Under the pieces are notes generated by a model. The model was not told where the DNA came from. It worked only from the letters and a program-made list of their open reading frames with translations, and searched no databases. The translations under genes and the position numbers were made by a program. From contig CAMDMA010000030.1 of the NCBI GenBank assembly GCA_945902075.1, positions 1 to 45,012 on the forward strand: a stretch of DNA of 45,012 nucleotides, given 5' to 3'. This DNA comes from Candidatus Kuenenia stuttgartensis (GTDB lineage Bacteria; Planctomycetota; Phycisphaerae; Phycisphaerales; SM1A02). Shown one piece after another: positions 16,003-25,536 of the stretch (positions are counted from its first letter, which is position 1; each line of letters begins with the position of its first letter).

Positions 16003-16686
16003 TCACTGCCGTCGCGTGCCGAGATTCTCGCCAAGATCGACCCGTTCATGCTGGTAGAAGAGTTGGGCAACTTCAAGTGCGATCTTCCGCACAAGCTCGT
16101 CCTCGACCTGTGTGCGTCCAGCGCGCGTGCGCAACGCAGAAGCGTCCTTCTCACGAATCACCGCAGTGATCTCGCGTCCGTCCGGCATGATTTCAGCCAT
16201 CGGATAGGAACGCATTTTGTTTTCGAGATCAAGAACCTTCACGCGAACCATCGCTGTCGGGCGAATGCCTCGGTCATCGCTGCGGCCAGCAAGATCGAAC
16301 ACCATGGGCTGGATGTGAATCACCTGCGCACAATCAAGCGCGCGTCCGATGGCCTCAACAGACATGAGCTTTGAACTCTCGCCTTTTGTTCCACTCCGTG
16401 CGACCATAACCGCATCGCGCGAGGCAACTGTGGAGTCGAGATGATCGCGTTGCATCAAATCGATTGACACTGCATCGCCAAGCGTCGTCCGAAGCGCCGT
16501 GCGCGGCAAAATGTTGCGCGGATCGTCGACAAACACGACGGTCTTTTTGTTGGGCAGCGTGTACTCCGCGTCGACCTGCCCCGGACCCTCGATGGCGTAC
16601 GCGACCGGAGTCACAATATTGCAACCGCTGAGTACAGACACGCCGAGGATCGCTGCCGAGAGAGAGATAAGACTGATGATTCGCAT
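16003..16686 (-). CDS. Predicted lipoprotein, second of a related pair
   Basis: Protein of 227 residues with a signal peptide (MRIISLISLSAAILGVSVLSGC) ending in a good LSGC lipobox. The mature part has KTVVFVDDPRN, a DAVSIDLMQRD helix, and a C-terminal ALEVAQLFYQHERVD. The overall order (lysine-rich strand with VVFVDD, helix, strand, C-terminal LFYxH) parallels the neighbouring upstream lipoprotein, so the two look like distant paralogues. The ATG at 16686 is preferred to an upstream in-frame one because it begins the signal peptide. Function unknown; it probably sits in the periplasmic face of a membrane. Confidence 0.75.
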   Translation of the reverse strand: MRIISLISLSAAILGVSVLSGCNIVTPVAYAIEGPGQVDAEYTLPNKKTVVFVDDPRNILPRTALRTTLGDAVSIDLMQRDHLDSTVASRDAVMVARSGTKGESSKLMSVEAIGRALDCAQVIHIQPMVFDLAGRSDDRGIRPTAMVRVKVLDLENKMRSYPMAEIMPDGREITAVIREKDASALRTRAGRTQVEDELVRKIALEVAQLFYQHERVDLGENLGTRRQ

Positions 16687-16759
16687 GATGCTTTGCCTAT
16701 GGGTTTCGCGCAGTGATTTGCGTACTGTGGCGTAATTGATCTCGTCTTCCGCAACGCAC

Positions 16760-17467
16760 TCAATACTCCGGATACTTGTCTTCAATGTGGCGATAGAAGA
16801 GCCATGACGACCCTTGGATAAATAGCGTCAGAAGCCCACGCTGAATGTCCTCGCGACGAGCAGATTCACGACCGACACCTTCGCGGTTTGGAAATTTCTC
16901 GACGACGTTCGCGGTGAATACGAACTCATCAGGCGAGATGCCGTCTGCCTCAATCACGCCGACGTTCGCGCCAGCCACTCCGTCCCAGAGGTAGCTGTTT
17001 CCGACGGGATTGAGCCGATACTCGTAGAGGTCGATGTAGATCAGTCGATCGACGCCGAGCTCGCGCGCGATCTCTCCGTAGGGCAGAGAACGCCATTGCG
17101 GGGTTCGATACTGCCACTCAAGGACCTGACCCGGCGGGAGGACTGACGCACCCTTCACATACTCGCGAATACGCACGGCGACATTGGCGGTGACGTTACC
17201 AACGACATCCGGGTGCTCGACGAGCGTCGCATAATCGGCATTCACGATGACAGCCGAGGTCTTCCCTTCGAGACCGTCATATTGCGCCGGAACGTCGAGT
17301 TTCTTGCCGCGCTCAATCTGCTGTCCAATTGCGCCGACGGCACCCGCGATACAGCCAGGGCCGGTGGCCGCGAGCGTTGCCGCGCAGAGGAGGGCGAACA
17401 CGCGCGACATCGATCGTGTTGCGATGTGTACGAAGCGGACGGTGGTGAGCGTGGTGTTCATGATCAT
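16760..17467 (-). CDS. Predicted lipoprotein, first of a related pair
   Basis: Protein of 235 residues with an N-terminal hydrophobic segment (FALLCAATLAATGPGC) and a Cys that could be lipidated, though GPGC is a weaker lipobox than usual. The mature region has KTSAVIVNADYATLVEHPDV, then ELGVDRLIYIDLYEYRLNP and the C-terminal SSWLFYRHIEDKY. The VIVNADY strand and LFYRH end correspond to VVFVDD and LFYQH in the next gene. It overlaps the DUF2752 gene stop by 4 bases (ATGA), so it is translationally coupled to it. Function unknown. Confidence 0.75.
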   Translation of the reverse strand: MIMNTTLTTVRFVHIATRSMSRVFALLCAATLAATGPGCIAGAVGAIGQQIERGKKLDVPAQYDGLEGKTSAVIVNADYATLVEHPDVVGNVTANVAVRIREYVKGASVLPPGQVLEWQYRTPQWRSLPYGEIARELGVDRLIYIDLYEYRLNPVGNSYLWDGVAGANVGVIEADGISPDEFVFTANVVEKFPNREGVGRESARREDIQRGLLTLFIQGSSWLFYRHIEDKYPEY

Positions 17468-19113: not shown

Positions 19114-20622
19114 TCAGCCGTGCACACGCTGCGCGAGATACCCGCAGCGACCGGCTACCTCAACGAGCATCAGCACGTACGACCGCGCGCCCTCGATCGG
19201 ACGCGCTGCGGCGAAACTCGGGTAGACGATATTGATAGCCGCGCTTGTTGCAGGATCGCAGGCTGGATGCGCCGCGCGAAGAATCTCCGCGTGGTCCCGA
19301 ATCCAATCTCGAACTTCGAGGAGCGCGCCGAGATCCTCGCGTCGACCCACGACATGCAGCAGGCCTGCTGCGTCGCACGCGATCTCCACCGCACGCGCAG
19401 ATGGCGCTCGGAAGGGAAAGGCCGCGAGCCCTTCGATGTGCTTTGCAAGCGGTTCCGGGAGGTTGGACTCGATCATTCGCGCTTCACCAACCACCACGGG
19501 AAGTGGTGGCAGGCTCGCGGACTCCACGGCAGGTTCCGACTTTGTCGACGCGCACGCAGCGCCCGGCTTCCGAAGGGCCACGCGCTCCGCAGACGCTGAC
19601 TCAATGCGTGCGCGCGCCTCGATGAGCTCGTCAACTGAAATCAATGGAGGCTTTGCCCGCGGTTGAATACGCGTGGCAGCGGTCGCGGAAGCTGCCGACG
19701 CTGCTTCAACGCGTGGGAGTGCCGCGATCGGCGTAGGCGGGAGCGATCCATGAAATGGAATCGGAGCCTCGTTGCGCGAGCGTGGCGGAACGGAACTGGT
19801 CGGCCCACGACGCTCTGCGCGAGGACCGAAGCGTTCGCCGACGACGGGTTGCTTTGCATCCACGGTCGGTCGCGCCGACACCCCGCCGTGCGACGCTGTC
19901 GGCGCTGTGCGGGCGGGAATCGGAGCAGCCTCCGCCTCCGACATCAGCGCGTAAATCTGCGCGAGCGTGGGCGAGGGTGCGTCAAAGGTCCCACGAAACG
20001 CGCTCTCCACAGGGGCCACGCGTTGGAGTCCACCGTCGACGGGAAGTTCAATATCGAGAAAACGCTGGGCGACCGCGCGCAACTTTCCGCCGACCTGCGC
20101 CGATGTGTCTGAGTCTGCGCCGAGCACCGTGACCGAAATCGACGGGCGTGTTCCAATGGATGTCCGCGCGTCGATCGACGCCATGCACCGTTTGACCAGT
20201 TCATACGCAGCCAGAACTGCCGGGTCATCTGCGCCAGTCAGGATGACTGTGCTCGCGGTCCCTTCTGGGATTTCGATCATGTCGTTTGTCCGCGGCACAA
20301 TCATCCAAGTCGACACGATTGGTGCAATGGCGCGAAGGGCTTCAGGAAGCGTGGACTGTGATGTGATCGTTGGTCGGCGCGCACCGGCGCGGAACAACTC
20401 AAGCTGGACCGCGTCATGCTCAAGCCGCACGAGACAGATTGCTCCATGTGCGCGTGCCTCGCGATCTGCGTATTGCGAAAGCCAAAGCCCACTCATCACG
20501 GGAAGATGACCGACGAGGAGAAGCGTGCGTTGCGCACTCGGAGATGCATTTTGCGCGGTCATACGCGGACCGAGAAACGCATCGAGGTTCATCTCGAAAG
20601 GACTGGGGACTCCCGCACTCAT
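19114..20622 (-). CDS. ParA-coupled protein with MinD/FlhG-like fold lacking a P-loop
   Basis: Protein of 502 residues. Residues about 30-205 read like a degenerate MinD/FlhG ATPase: RTLLLVGHLPVMSGLWLSQY, the strand STVILTGADDPAVLAAYELV (where FlhG/MinD have the Asn/Glu-Pro-x-A-x-x-D-A-Y segment) and VTVLGADSDTSAQ followed by a helix and RFLDIELPVDGGLQ. No Walker A lysine motif is present, so ATP hydrolysis is unlikely. Residues about 210-370 are a Pro/Ala/Ser-rich linker. The C-terminal part is helical and ends with a compact alpha/beta region. Its start overlaps the ParA gene stop by 4 bases (ATGA) with GGGAGGAG before it. It is therefore made alongside ParA and may bind or regulate it. The fold assignment is by eye. 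Confidence 0.65.
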   Translation of the reverse strand: MSAGVPSPFEMNLDAFLGPRMTAQNASPSAQRTLLLVGHLPVMSGLWLSQYADREARAHGAICLVRLEHDAVQLELFRAGARRPTITSQSTLPEALRAIAPIVSTWMIVPRTNDMIEIPEGTASTVILTGADDPAVLAAYELVKRCMASIDARTSIGTRPSISVTVLGADSDTSAQVGGKLRAVAQRFLDIELPVDGGLQRVAPVESAFRGTFDAPSPTLAQIYALMSEAEAAPIPARTAPTASHGGVSARPTVDAKQPVVGERFGPRAERRGPTSSVPPRSRNEAPIPFHGSLPPTPIAALPRVEAASAASATAATRIQPRAKPPLISVDELIEARARIESASAERVALRKPGAACASTKSEPAVESASLPPLPVVVGEARMIESNLPEPLAKHIEGLAAFPFRAPSARAVEIACDAAGLLHVVGRREDLGALLEVRDWIRDHAEILRAAHPACDPATSAAINIVYPSFAAARPIEGARSYVLMLVEVAGRCGYLAQRVHG

Positions 20623-21986
20623 CGGCTCCTCCCCTCGCTCATACGCGCGGGCATCGACTGCCCAGCACCGTGTGGAACTTCGACCAAACTCACACCGATA
20701 GTGCCTTCTTCGGCCTCGCGATGGGTGTTGTGAGGATCGAGCATTTCGAGGCCGTCGACCGCGATGCGGTACGCATGGCGACCGGGCGACAACTCGACAG
20801 ATGCCTCCATACGCATGCCATCGGAACTCGCCATCAGCGGAGTTGCCACTGGATTCCAACCATTGAAGTCTCCGACGACGAACAGCCCGTGTGCTGTTGC
20901 GGGCTGACTGAAGATGACCACGCCCTCGCGATCTGCACGTACGCCGAAGCCGCCGCCAAACGGCACTGGGCTACGCGCACGATCTGCGAGTGCGCGCAGT
21001 CGGGAGACAAGATCTGCAGCTCGGTCGAGGGTGGCGTCGGGGGTCGAATGCGCGCTTGAATTGGTGCTTGAGCCTACGGACGTGGATTCACCGACGGATC
21101 CGAATGCGGCGGCTTCATCGAGTGAGAGATCGAAACCGGGGAGCGCAACGTTTCGCGGAATATCCATAAGTGGCGGCTCCGCAGCGCCAAAATCTGCGAG
21201 TGCGGTCGCTGCAGGCGCATTTTCGGCAAGCCACGCGGCAAGTAGCGCGAAGTCCGCCTCGGCCGCCGAACCCGGCGCAAACTCCATGATCGACTGCCCG
21301 TAACTCGCGGCATCACGCAGCTCTTCGTGCTCACGAATCATGATGGGCAGGAGATACTCCGGAAAGCGCTTCGCAAGCGTGGCAACAACATCGCGCGAGA
21401 GCGCGCGAGATTCGTTGTAAAGCGTCGGCAGCAGCGCAAAGGGAATGTCGCGACCGAAACGCCGCACGATCGATCGAATGGTTTCGATCTGCTTCTCAGC
21501 GCCCTTCAAACTGAAGTAGCCGGTCTCCACGGGAATCAGCACAAGATCAGACGCGCGCAGCGCGTTAAACGTCAGCAGGCCGATCGTCGGGGGGCAGTCG
21601 ATGATGCACCAGTCAAATTCGTGCTGCCACGCGCCGAGGACGCGCGCAAGGCGTCGATCGCGATCGAAGCGCGCCGCGAGTGGGCCGTTGGGCGCCTCGA
21701 GCGATGCGAGCGCGACGCTCGACGGGACAAGTTTGAGACCGTGGCCCACTTCCCAGAGATACTCGTCCGCGCGCGGCGGATGCGCGTGGTCGGCGAGCAT
21801 GGCGTCGGCGATCGTGCGCTCGAGCGTGAGATCAGGCACCCCCAGGCCGGCCGCGCAGTGCGACTGCGGATCCATATCAACAAGGAGCACCCTCGCGCCG
21901 TCACGGGCGAGGATGGCCGCGAGATTAACAGCCGTTGTGGTCTTGCCACAACCGCCCTTCTGATTGACGATCGAGACTACGCGCAT
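20619..21986 (-). CDS. ParA/Soj-type ATPase fused to an AMPK-type glycogen-binding domain
   Basis: Protein of 455 residues. Residues 1-260 are a ParA/MinD ATPase: deviant Walker A QKGGCGKTTTAVN (9-21), Walker A' LLVDMDPQSH (34-43), Walker B CIIDCPPTIG (127-136). After an acidic, serine-rich linker, residues about 347-437 match the AMPK beta glycogen-binding domain: FVVGDFNGWNP, LSPGRHAYRIAVDG and DPHNTH, ending in an SLVEV strand. The first sugar-stacking Trp (NGW) is kept. The AMPK Lys in YKF is Arg here, and the second Trp after VDG is lost, so sugar binding is uncertain. ParA proteins position DNA, chemoreceptor clusters or carboxysomes. No ParB or parS is present. It lies 54 bases after aroB and overlaps its partner gene. 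Confidence 0.88.
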   Translation of the reverse strand: MRVVSIVNQKGGCGKTTTAVNLAAILARDGARVLLVDMDPQSHCAAGLGVPDLTLERTIADAMLADHAHPPRADEYLWEVGHGLKLVPSSVALASLEAPNGPLAARFDRDRRLARVLGAWQHEFDWCIIDCPPTIGLLTFNALRASDLVLIPVETGYFSLKGAEKQIETIRSIVRRFGRDIPFALLPTLYNESRALSRDVVATLAKRFPEYLLPIMIREHEELRDAASYGQSIMEFAPGSAAEADFALLAAWLAENAPAATALADFGAAEPPLMDIPRNVALPGFDLSLDEAAAFGSVGESTSVGSSTNSSAHSTPDATLDRAADLVSRLRALADRARSPVPFGGGFGVRADREGVVIFSQPATAHGLFVVGDFNGWNPVATPLMASSDGMRMEASVELSPGRHAYRIAVDGLEMLDPHNTHREAEEGTIGVSLVEVPHGAGQSMPARMSEGRSR

Positions 21987-22040: not shown

Positions 22041-23204
22041 TCACATCGCTGATTCACCGGCAGCGCCGATCGCCGCCAGCCCCGCAAGCACCGTCTCTTC
22101 CGGTGGGTCCGTGACCACCGTGACATCTCCCATCTTGCGCGCAAGCACGAGTCGGAGGACGCCGCCTTGGTTCTTCTTGTCGAAACCCATGCGGTGCCGA
22201 ATTTCTGACTGCGGAATGGGCAAGGGCATCCGGATTGGTAGACCAAGTTGCGAAAGGAGCCGTTCGACCCGAACCGCGAGCGGCTCATTTGGAGAACCCA
22301 CGCTTGGGGAACCAACCGGCGGCGCGAAGTACGCGTGGGCGCAGTGGGCAGCTGCGACCATTCCGATCGCAACAGCCTCTCCATGAAGGAGTTGAAGCGC
22401 GGGAACCGTTTCGATCGCATGCCCAAATGTGTGGCCGAGATTGAGGAGTGCCCGCTCGCCGAGCTCGTGAGGATCGCGGGCGACGATAGCGGCTTTCACC
22501 GACGCGGAGGCTGGGATCAATCGGTCGAGCGCTGATACATCCCCGGCGGCGAGCGCGCGCGCGTCCGCTTCAAGCGCGGCGAGCAGCGCGCCACCGGCGA
22601 TCACCGCGTGCTTGGCGCACTCCGCGAGGCCAGCACGCAACTCGCGCACCGGAAGCGTCGTCAACAGGTCGGCATCGGCGATCGTCACCTTCGGTTGCCA
22701 AAACGCGCCCGCGAGATTCTTCCCAAGTCCTCCGCCTGGAAGCGCTAGATTTACGCCGGTCTTCCCACCAATCGACGCGTCAACCATGGCGAGGAGCGTC
22801 GTCGGGATTTGGACGAGGTCGATTCCCCGGAGGTAGGTCGCGGCGGCGAAGCCCGCGACATCACCGACAAGCCCCCCACCCAGCGCCACCAGCAGGCCGC
22901 CTCGATCAAGTCGTGCCTCGAGCGCGGCACTCCAAATCGCTTCGACTTCGCGCATCGACTTCGTTTCTTCACGTGCGCGCATCTCGTGCACAGCGACCCG
23001 CGCGCCGGCGCGCTCGAGGGCCGTCACGACGCGGGGTGCGTGGGTTGCGGCGATGCTTGCGTCAACAACGACGAGGACACGGCGTGCATCGATTGCGATC
23101 GACTCGCGCGCGAGGATTGAACCCACGACTTGTACGCCGCCGCGACGGACGACCAGACTTGTCGCGTGGCCGGGTACGTCGATGGGGATACGAATTTCGC
23201 TCAT
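22041..23204 (-). CDS. aroB: 3-dehydroquinate synthase
   Basis: Second step of the shikimate pathway: cyclises DAHP to 3-dehydroquinate using NAD and a divalent metal. The 387 residues show the NAD-binding GGLLVALGGGLVGDVAGFAAA, then IPTTLLAMVDASIGGKTGVN, the metal ligands in LRAGLAECAKHAVI, LLNLGHTFGHAIE and LHGEAVAIGM, and the late MGFDKKNQGG. Between residues about 315 and 335 is a small insertion with a near-repeat, GSPSVGSP. The ATG at 23204 fits the family N-terminus and lies 7 bases after the small membrane-protein gene. The other genes of the unit have no evident aromatic-pathway link. Confidence 0.96.
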   Translation of the reverse strand: MSEIRIPIDVPGHATSLVVRRGGVQVVGSILARESIAIDARRVLVVVDASIAATHAPRVVTALERAGARVAVHEMRAREETKSMREVEAIWSAALEARLDRGGLLVALGGGLVGDVAGFAAATYLRGIDLVQIPTTLLAMVDASIGGKTGVNLALPGGGLGKNLAGAFWQPKVTIADADLLTTLPVRELRAGLAECAKHAVIAGGALLAALEADARALAAGDVSALDRLIPASASVKAAIVARDPHELGERALLNLGHTFGHAIETVPALQLLHGEAVAIGMVAAAHCAHAYFAPPVGSPSVGSPNEPLAVRVERLLSQLGLPIRMPLPIPQSEIRHRMGFDKKNQGGVLRLVLARKMGDVTVVTDPPEETVLAGLAAIGAAGESAM

Positions 23205-24156: not shown

Positions 24157-25536
24157 ATGACCGCACCCAAAGCACCTCCCCCGCCCCCGCCGCCGACAGC
24201 GGTTGGTGTCGCGCGGCCGTTGCGGGTGATTGCCATCTGCCCTCTGGCATTCGAGCGTCGGATTTTGCGACGGTTTGCCAAACTTCCCACGGTCGGCGCA
24301 GGGCCTGGACCGGATGGCATCCGGCGAGCGTTCTCATGGCGCGCGGACTGGCCATTTCCGCAGCCGGATCTTGTCGTACTCGTGGGGACTGCCGGCGCGC
24401 TGAACGCTCGGTGTATCCCGGGCAGTGACCATCTCGTGCGTGAAGTTTGCAGGCCCGATGGAAGCGTGCTCGTGTCCAGAGTTGTGCGGGAAGCAGACGC
24501 GCGGGTTGTCGAGTCTCCGTTGATCGTGTCGACTCGGGAAGCGAAGCGGGCGCTTGGCCTCGCGACCAAGGCCGATCTCGTAGATCTGGAATCGTTCGCG
24601 TTTGCCGAATGTGCAGAGTCCGCGGGGCTTCGCTGGGCAATCGTGCGCGGAGTGAGCGATGGCGTGGATGATGTACTCCCGCGTGAATGTGCGGGGTTCA
24701 TCAACGATGCTGGCGAAACGCGCCTTCTGCGCGTCCTTCGTGCAATCGCCCTTCGTCCCAGGCTTCTCGTGGAGCTTGCGCAGATCGGTCGCACCGCGAG
24801 GCGCGCGATGCGCAGCGCAGCGTTTACAACCGATGGATTGGCATGCGTCGATACGATCGAACTCTGTAACCCGCACCATCCGCTTCTCTTGTACGGAGGC
24901 TCGTTCGACCCGCCCCACGCGCGGCACGCTTCGATGCTCGCAGACGCTGTGCGCGCGTTGCAAGCGCCGTGCGCGCTTGTGGTCCCGGCCGCACTCAATC
25001 CCTTGAAATGCGCGACGCCACCAGCGCCCGCGGATGCTCGTATCGCCATGTGCGAGGCGACATTCAAACCCATTGAGGACAGGGTTCCCGTTGAAGTTCG
25101 CATCTCGGCCGCGGAGGTCTCCCGGCCGGGGCCGAGTTACACGTTCGACACCGTTCAACAACTTCTAACCGAACGCCCCGCCCTCTCTGGAAGCCTTCGG
25201 ATGCTGCTCGGAAGTGACGCGCTGCGCGACATCATGCGGTGGCACCGTTGGCGCGAGTTACTGGCGCTCGTTCAACCCGCGGTTGTCGTGCGCCCGCCCG
25301 ATGACCATGCCTCCGTCACTCGATTTCTCAAAGAATTCGGTGTGACACAGGGGTTCGCGGACGCTCCGACCTGGCTCTTATCGCTGCCACCCGTCGAACT
25401 TGCCTCGACCGAAATTCGACGCGCCATCGCCGCCGGAATACGACCCGCTGGCATCGCCGAGGACGCTTGGCGTGAAATCTCGGCGCGGGGCCTCTACGGC
25501 TTCGGCGAAGCGCGCGAACGGATCTACACTCTCTGA
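24157..25536 (+). CDS. nadD: Fusion of an MTA/SAH nucleosidase-like domain with NadD
   Basis: Protein of 459 residues with two enzymatic domains after a run of nine prolines. Residues about 22-220 look like a nucleoside phosphorylase/MTA-SAH nucleosidase: LVVLVGTAGAL, VDLESFAFAECAESAGLRW, and IVRGVSDGVDD with the catalytic Asp at about 168. Residues about 243-459 are nicotinate-mononucleotide adenylyltransferase, which makes NaAD from NaMN and ATP: GGSFDPPHARH (247-257), LLGSDAL, RWHRWREL, VVVRP and the phosphate-binding ASTEIRRAI. The usual HxGH reads HARH, so the glycine is replaced by arginine. The joined domains suggest a link between nucleoside cleavage and NAD synthesis or salvage. CACAAT lies 8 bases before the ATG. 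rimO starts 3 bases after the stop. Confidence 0.87.
   Translation: MTAPKAPPPPPPPTAVGVARPLRVIAICPLAFERRILRRFAKLPTVGAGPGPDGIRRAFSWRADWPFPQPDLVVLVGTAGALNARCIPGSDHLVREVCRPDGSVLVSRVVREADARVVESPLIVSTREAKRALGLATKADLVDLESFAFAECAESAGLRWAIVRGVSDGVDDVLPRECAGFINDAGETRLLRVLRAIALRPRLLVELAQIGRTARRAMRSAAFTTDGLACVDTIELCNPHHPLLLYGGSFDPPHARHASMLADAVRALQAPCALVVPAALNPLKCATPPAPADARIAMCEATFKPIEDRVPVEVRISAAEVSRPGPSYTFDTVQQLLTERPALSGSLRMLLGSDALRDIMRWHRWRELLALVQPAVVVRPPDDHASVTRFLKEFGVTQGFADAPTWLLSLPPVELASTEIRRAIAAGIRPAGIAEDAWREISARGLYGFGEARERIYTL

Follow-up and report, generated by a model that had tools for sequence, protein, structure and literature searches.

The window (positions 1 to 45,012 of contig CAMDMA010000030.1, at full length; the assembly totals 3.31 Mb) carries a gene in which a Soj-type ParA ATPase is joined by a flexible linker to a C-terminal carbohydrate-binding module (CBM) of the AMPK-β type (CBM48). 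This fusion is an old and conserved protein of the class Phycisphaerae, and in the order of the window and in some other families the next gene encodes a pseudo-ATPase partner that lacks a P-loop. The best explanation that we can offer, held at somewhat short of an even chance, is a positioning or sensing ATPase that ancestrally contacted α-glucan directly and is regulated by the pseudo-ATPase, the contact having probably been lost or repurposed in the window copy.

ParA and MinD ATPases are responsible for positioning DNA, carboxysomes, chemoreceptor arrays, and flagella (PMC10241942). A 2025 review on organelle positioning (PMC13052382) does not count the distribution of glycogen in bacteria among its cases, its main text having 0 occurrences of the word "glycogen". 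Judged by the titles listed, searches of open-access papers found no description of a ParA protein with a glycogen-binding domain. A ParA that carries its own domain of the glycogen-binding type, with a class-wide invariant Trp/Arg/Trp triad, makes the distribution of glycogen a directly testable question, for which intact, decayed, and lost domains provide a natural series of controls.

Architecture of the ParA–CBM fusion

On the minus strand, aroB is followed by the fusion gene and then by the partner gene, and the ParA stop codon and the partner start codon overlap as ATGA at 20622–20619. An earlier reading of the letters alone (the sequence-only reading) had given these coordinates and the overlap correctly. 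The features are the following:

20619–21986, minus strand: ParA–CBM fusion gene, 455 amino acids (P0001); AAA_31 at 3.2e-43, AMPK1_CBM at 7.6e-6
21207–21986, minus strand: ParA (Soj-type) ATPase domain, residues about 1–260; P-loop QKGGCGKTTT, Asp39, Asp130
20979–21026, minus strand: short predicted linker helix, residues 321–336, DRAADLVSRLRALADR; consensus RAAELAxRARxL
20673–20948, minus strand: AMPK-β/CBM48-type domain, residues about 347–438; Trp377, Arg407, Glu414
19114–20622, minus strand: partner gene, 502 amino acids (P0002); ATG at 20622
19918–20532, minus strand: partner N-domain with a FlhG/FleN/MinD-like fold, residues about 31–235; GHLPVxxGxW in place of the P-loop
19123–19491, minus strand: partner C-domain, residues about 378–500; conserved, no known family found
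22041–23204, minus strand: aroB (3-dehydroquinate synthase), upstream neighbor; TIGR01357 at 3.1e-96, linked by adjacency only

We compared the ATPase domain across the 65 proteins of alignment A3, picked as ParAs long enough to hold the C-terminal domain (L170 left out, L182 included). Lys10, Lys15, Asp39, and Asp130 (deviant Walker A, catalytic Asp, and Walker B Asp) are invariant in all 65, in agreement with the intact deviant Walker A and Walker B motifs noticed in the sequence-only reading. The top match in the VIA fold comparison is Soj (9a6n_A; Z 36.8, root-mean-square deviation (rmsd) 1.6, 250 aligned residues, 36% identity), in an alignment that, like the other VIA alignments of the ParA model, spans mainly residues 1–261. 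Soj/ParA structures (9a6n, 2bek, and 6iub; Z 33.8–36.8) share the ATPase domain, the deviant P-loop, and the catalytic residues, whereas the window protein has the additional AMPK-type domain and its next gene is not parB, so the locus is not a ParABS system. The linker helix, modeled at low confidence (predicted local distance difference test (pLDDT) about 48–67), is also recognizable in relatives that lack the CBM, and its Arg329 occurs in 61/65 proteins.

The likeness to Soj brings up an ordinary chromosome-partition ParA whose extra domain is incidental and whose partner stands in for ParB in degenerate form, a reading to which we give little credence. The nearest fold and the best NCBIfam match, ParA_partition, would agree with it, but the NCBIfam score of 114.6 lies far below the cut-off of 180, and no ParB family matched among the window neighbor proteins scanned (the genome was not searched for ParB). 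In addition, the genome carries another ParA with an Ala-rich tail (L259, 3825–5285, minus strand, contig C1), which lies ∼3 kb downstream of biotin-ligase-like and quinolinate-phosphoribosyltransferase genes.

By analogy, the closest working counterpart may be the McdA/McdB system of carboxysome positioning, in which a ParA-type ATPase serves a body of carbon metabolism. McdA is among the ParA fold matches (6non_B, Z 30.2), but cargo binding would here sit on the ATPase itself, and the partner is an FlhG-like pseudo-ATPase. BcsQ of cellulose synthesis is another ParA-type ATPase with a link to a glucan pathway; to our knowledge it lacks a CBM. The BcsQ Pfam model matches 65/65 of the aligned proteins, a likeness that extends no further than the ATPase family, and no bcs gene was present among the ten window proteins scanned.

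Conservation and decay of the sugar site

The sequence-only reading had recognized an AMPK-type domain at the C terminus, an assignment upheld by profile search. All 65 proteins of alignment A3 match AMPK1_CBM (E ≤ 0.01, the best value being 1.7e-15), and the solved structures closest to a profile of 16 such domains are AMPK β CBMs (E 2.2e-14). AlphaFold2 models window residues 351–440 at pLDDT 91–97. The window protein by itself is borderline, as its scores straddle the curated cut-off of 26.8 bits: residues 364–430 reach 26.5 bits with hmmscan and 30.2 bits in the genome search.

The window copy retains the equivalents of AMPK W100 (Trp377) and K126 (as Arg407). The equivalent of W133 is Glu414, so that the second Trp is gone, as had already been noted from the sequence, and the equivalent of N150, which we take to be a further sugar contact in AMPK, is lost as well. 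In AMPK, W100, K126, W133, L146, and T148 touch the sugar, and mutants bind glycogen markedly less (PMC2642990); W133L is reported to have disrupted binding just partly in another AMPK study (PMC6274970 and PMC2642990).

Class members outside the order show no variation at the W100, K126 (here Arg), and W133 equivalents in 64/64 domains, compared with a median column conservation of 62.5%, and the N150 equivalent is Asn in 58/64. These canonical domains, for example those of L084 and of L164 (record CP087563, "syqfu", a cultured member), thus match three of the five AMPK contact residues given in PMC2642990. The remaining two positions mostly differ from AMPK, the L146 equivalent being Phe or Tyr in 62/64 and the T148 equivalent being Glu in 54/64. 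Compared with the AMPK β glycogen-binding domain (1z0n and 4yee), the domain is of the same family but is fused to a ParA and has no kinase complex.

Within the order, the second Trp is kept in 22/23 domains outside the window's family (f1) and in 9/13 domains from f1 genera other than the window's, whereas it is lost together with the N150 equivalent in 14/14 domains of the window's genus. A further 8 genomes of the order sample have no domain, and 1 is truncated. By these Trp counts, the decay of the sugar site is lineage-specific. Of the window's genus (e.g. L064–L068 and L226–L231), 11/14 species have Glu in place of the second Trp, which suggests a new constraint rather than mere decay.

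A rival reading is that the domain is an E-set fold for protein–protein contact, for example with the partner, and has no sugar function. The window's genus has kept the domain conserved, mostly with Glu in place of Trp, while sister lineages have lost it, the window copy scores at the border of its Pfam cut-off, and the L146 and T148 positions are unlike AMPK. We nevertheless consider this improbable for the family as a whole, because the Trp/Arg/Trp triad is invariant in all 64 domains outside the order, 40 of which come without a partner match in the region read (some regions being short). An ancestral direct contact with glucan remains the reading that we prefer.

A canonical AMPK-type CBM with both Trp residues (4.6e-11) is present elsewhere in the same genome, in contrast to the decayed CBM of the ParA. 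It belongs to an α-amylase-family protein with an N-terminal hydrophobic segment (L001, 1273–3213, contig C37; PF00128 at 1e-44).

The pseudo-ATPase partner

The sequence-only reading had described the next gene as FlhG/MinD-like without a P-loop, and structure comparison agrees. The N-domain of the partner resembles FlhG and FleN best, matching 4rz2_A with Foldseek (E 8.7e-6, with a TM score by target of only 0.43) and 4rz3_A with VIA (Z 12.0, rmsd 3.6, 159 aligned residues, in alignments that span mainly residues 27–207 of the model). A sequence profile gives weak but independent matches to FlhG (6.5e-5) and FleN (1e-3). We aligned 66 of 71 partners (alignment A2; the long or odd L164, L181, L193, L200, and L201 were left out). 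None of the 66 has a P-loop-like motif; GHLPVxxGxW stands in its place, with Trp47 in 66/66. The window protein has no Pfam or NCBIfam match, and a Pfam scan of the 66 partners found no family matched by more than one member.

Whereas the fold of the N-domain resembles FlhG/FleN (4rz2 and 5j1j), the partner has no P-loop, a long linker, and an extra C-domain, and lies beside a ParA. Because it lacks the P-loop, we do not class it as FlhG. The C-domain is modeled well (pLDDT 89–97 over residues 381–500) and is joined to the N-domain by a low-confidence Pro-rich linker.

Two other readings of these proteins were considered and rejected. The partner is not a recognizable duplicate of this ParA, as a profile–profile comparison was empty (probability 0.1 on the hhalign scale of 100). 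A role in defense found no backing in PADLOC: ParA matched weakly three times, with the two better matches confined to the first 45 residues around the P-loop, and the partner had no match.

Distribution of the fusion and its partner

In a scan of one genome per species, of which the best 80 loci were kept, most loci came from metagenome-assembled genomes (MAGs) labeled Phycisphaerales, Phycisphaerae, Phycisphaeraceae, or Planctomycetota; a few titled Limnohabitans or Leptolyngbya look like mis-assigned MAGs. The domain is present in 70 of these 80 loci; 8 others have complete ParAs without it, and 2 are truncated where the contig stops. The fusion is no frame or assembly artefact of one contig, as ParA and domain share a single open frame in 50/59 genomes of the order sample, 70/73 ParA frames of the class regions, and 70/80 named loci, sets that overlap.

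Across the class, 92/150 genomes have a strong ParA match (E ≤ 1e-90), and the domain lies within the ParA frame in 87 of the 91 genomes read (17 of 18 plus 70 of 73; a 74th class region, G329, had no ParA frame). In a phylum sample of 246 genomes, none of the out-of-class matches listed extends past profile position 355 of 459. Taken with the class counts, this suggests that the fusion is characteristic of the class.

Where a named locus leaves 900 bases or more downstream of ParA, the partner gene comes next in 72/73 cases. This is a count rather than an independent test, since some of these genomes also contributed to the partner profile. The lone exception is the cultured strain ZRK32 (L182, record CP066225). 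The pair, which the sequence-only reading had proposed to survey, is conserved in relatives within the order. Outside the order, the partner profile matches downstream of ParA in 24/65 genomes. In two more (G317 and G321) the next gene opens with the same LADLLLG/LGDLFFG motif, as judged by eye, and in the remaining genomes no match was found near ParA, some regions being too short.

Several other families of the class yielded no partner match, so that fusion and partner are separable; it looks as though the partner was added in some lineages or lost in others. The suggested coupling of the two proteins therefore holds as adjacency within the order and is looser beyond that, as the partner stays in the part of the order where ParA has lost its domain and the fusion occurs without a recognizable partner in other families.

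Co-occurrence with glycogen genes

We searched 61 genomes of the order for genes of glucan metabolism and found GlgA (GT5) in 2, GT35 phosphorylase in 20, GlgE in 1, and GT3 glycogen synthase in 15. GlgB exceeds the cut-off in 6 genomes, and 35 match at E ≤ 1e-40 when weaker matches are included. We counted GlgA, GlgB over the cut-off, GT35, or GT3 as a glucan-polymer gene. Of the 61 genomes, 58 were evaluable; G008 and G009 (no ParA locus retrieved) and G029 (truncated) were set aside, and G014 is also off the tree.

The equivalent of W133 is kept in 27/29 genomes with a glucan-polymer gene versus 4/29 without (Fisher 7e-10). Viewed from the other side, the gene occurs in 27/31 genomes that keep the Trp versus 2/27 that lack the Trp or the domain. 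Within f1, it is found in 5/9 Trp-keepers versus 0/25 others (p 4.5e-4), so that all 5 gene-bearers keep the Trp, as against 4/29 f1 genomes without such a gene; with the window's genus counted once, the figures are 5/9 versus 0/12 (p 0.006). A Pagel-type test on a tree of the ParA domain gave p 0.004, a value that comes from incomplete MAGs and a single-gene tree in which the outgroup used for rooting is not monophyletic and in which we read ∼5 independent losses.

In the 16 genomes of the window's genus, no glycogen synthase, phosphorylase, GlgE, or above-cut-off branching enzyme was detected at the thresholds used, and the GlgB match of the window's own genome (231.5 bits) stays below the cut-off of 463.95. 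Together with the loss of the W133 and N150 equivalents throughout the genus, this fails to support the suggestion of the sequence-only reading that the present copy could place or sense glycogen.

Several observations weigh against a link between the fusion and glycogen, in addition to the unlike L146 and T148 positions. The association in the order draws on few independent events and was tested on a tree of the ParA gene. G041 and G048 have GT3 and a phosphorylase, yet their CBM is decayed or lost, and in four f1 genomes the Trp is kept although no glucan gene was detected. Class-wide, GT3 glycogen synthase is not tied to ParA (41/92 genomes with ParA versus 29/58 without, p 0.61), and GlgA is nearly absent (3/150 at E ≤ 1e-60, 1 above the cut-off). 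Of the 92 ParA-bearing class genomes, 50 lack both GT3 and GlgA, the two glycogen genes for which the whole class sample was searched. Families f9, f103, and f104 and most of f91 retain an intact CBM in the absence of GT3. No glycogen gene appears among 15 further neighbor-family representatives, 8 of which have no Pfam match. Finally, the partner persists without the CBM, so that glucan cannot be its whole purpose. That the site tracks glycogen metabolism is supported within the order and unproven outside it.

The eukaryote-type GT3 glycogen synthase was seen in 70/150 class genomes, and in four genomes of family f2 (G037, G042, G046, and G050) it lies ∼1 kb from GlgB (e.g. G042:C1, GT3 at 1486852–1488621 and GlgB at 1483962–1485815). 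GT3 in bacteria of the Planctomycetes–Verrucomicrobia–Chlamydiae (PVC) group is already known and covered by a 2024 review (PMC11046441).

Proposed function

Upon the parts, folds, conservation, and co-occurrence described above, a mechanism may be built in which dimerization and nucleoid binding by ParA, glucan binding by the CBMs, and regulation by the partner are the steps that we infer. By analogy with Soj and McdA, ATP-bound ParA dimers would ride the nucleoid, and the two CBMs of each dimer would bind α-glucan chains. Glycogen-type particles, or enzymes on them, could then be the cargo or a local signal without an adaptor of the ParB or McdB type. Where present, the pseudo-ATPase partner may regulate the ATPase cycle or pair with ParA through its MinD-like face, and would thereby stand in for an ATPase-activating partner. 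We favor direct glucan contact, with which the cargo and the signal versions both fit. The decayed sugar site and the lack of detected glycogen genes lead us to read the CBM fold of the window's genus as probably protein-binding or vestigial, with the core of ParA and partner working on something else.

In its most specific form, this would be a glycogen partition system in which ParA grips the polysaccharide particle by its own AMPK-type domain, without a ParB-like adaptor and with pseudo-ATPase tuning in some lineages, and which is dismantled stepwise (sugar site, then domain) where glycogen is given up. We regard this version as conceivable but rather unlikely.

About equally doubtful is a glucan sensor that moves nothing: the CBM would read glycogen or malto-oligosaccharides, gate the ATPase, and link carbon status to another ParA job, such as chromosome or division-site placement or FleN-like regulation. 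The ParA/partner core survives in f1 genomes that have neither the CBM nor detected glycogen genes, which argues against glycogen itself as its job. In the 50 genomes without GT3 and GlgA, the CBM could read soluble glucans, and AMPK uses the same domain allosterically (PMC2642990). However, no downstream target of such a sensor is known, and the 15 neighbor representatives include no such regulator, parB, or flagellar gene, a weak argument given the 8 without a Pfam match.

With regard to the ancestral protein of the class, for which we prefer direct glucan contact, the idea that it reads sugar has become much stronger than the sequence alone could have told the earlier reader. The observation made in that reading is confirmed, and its interpretation is partly supported overall, with the AMPK/CBM48-type domain and the conservation of the pair in the order both found.

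Genomic neighborhood

The fusion gene has no adjoining parB, being flanked by the FlhG-like pseudo-ATPase gene and, upstream, by aroB. The latter is the one strongly conserved upstream neighbor (57/85 loci), and 56 of these 57 copies lie on the ParA strand. Among the 15 further neighbor-family representatives, those with a Pfam match comprise DUF2752, M19 dipeptidase, MraZ, ClpX, a metallo-β-lactamase fold, acyltransferases, and an LpxA-type protein.

Elsewhere in the window, a single open reading frame (ORF) on the plus strand (24157–25536) combines a phosphorylase-superfamily part (PNP_UDP_1) with a cytidylyltransferase-like part, which we guess to be of the NadD type. On the minus strand, the overlapping ORFs 16003–16785 and 16760–17467 appear lipoprotein-like by eye and match no Pfam family above its cut-off; a relative of the 16003–16785 ORF lies downstream of ParA in 29/85 loci.

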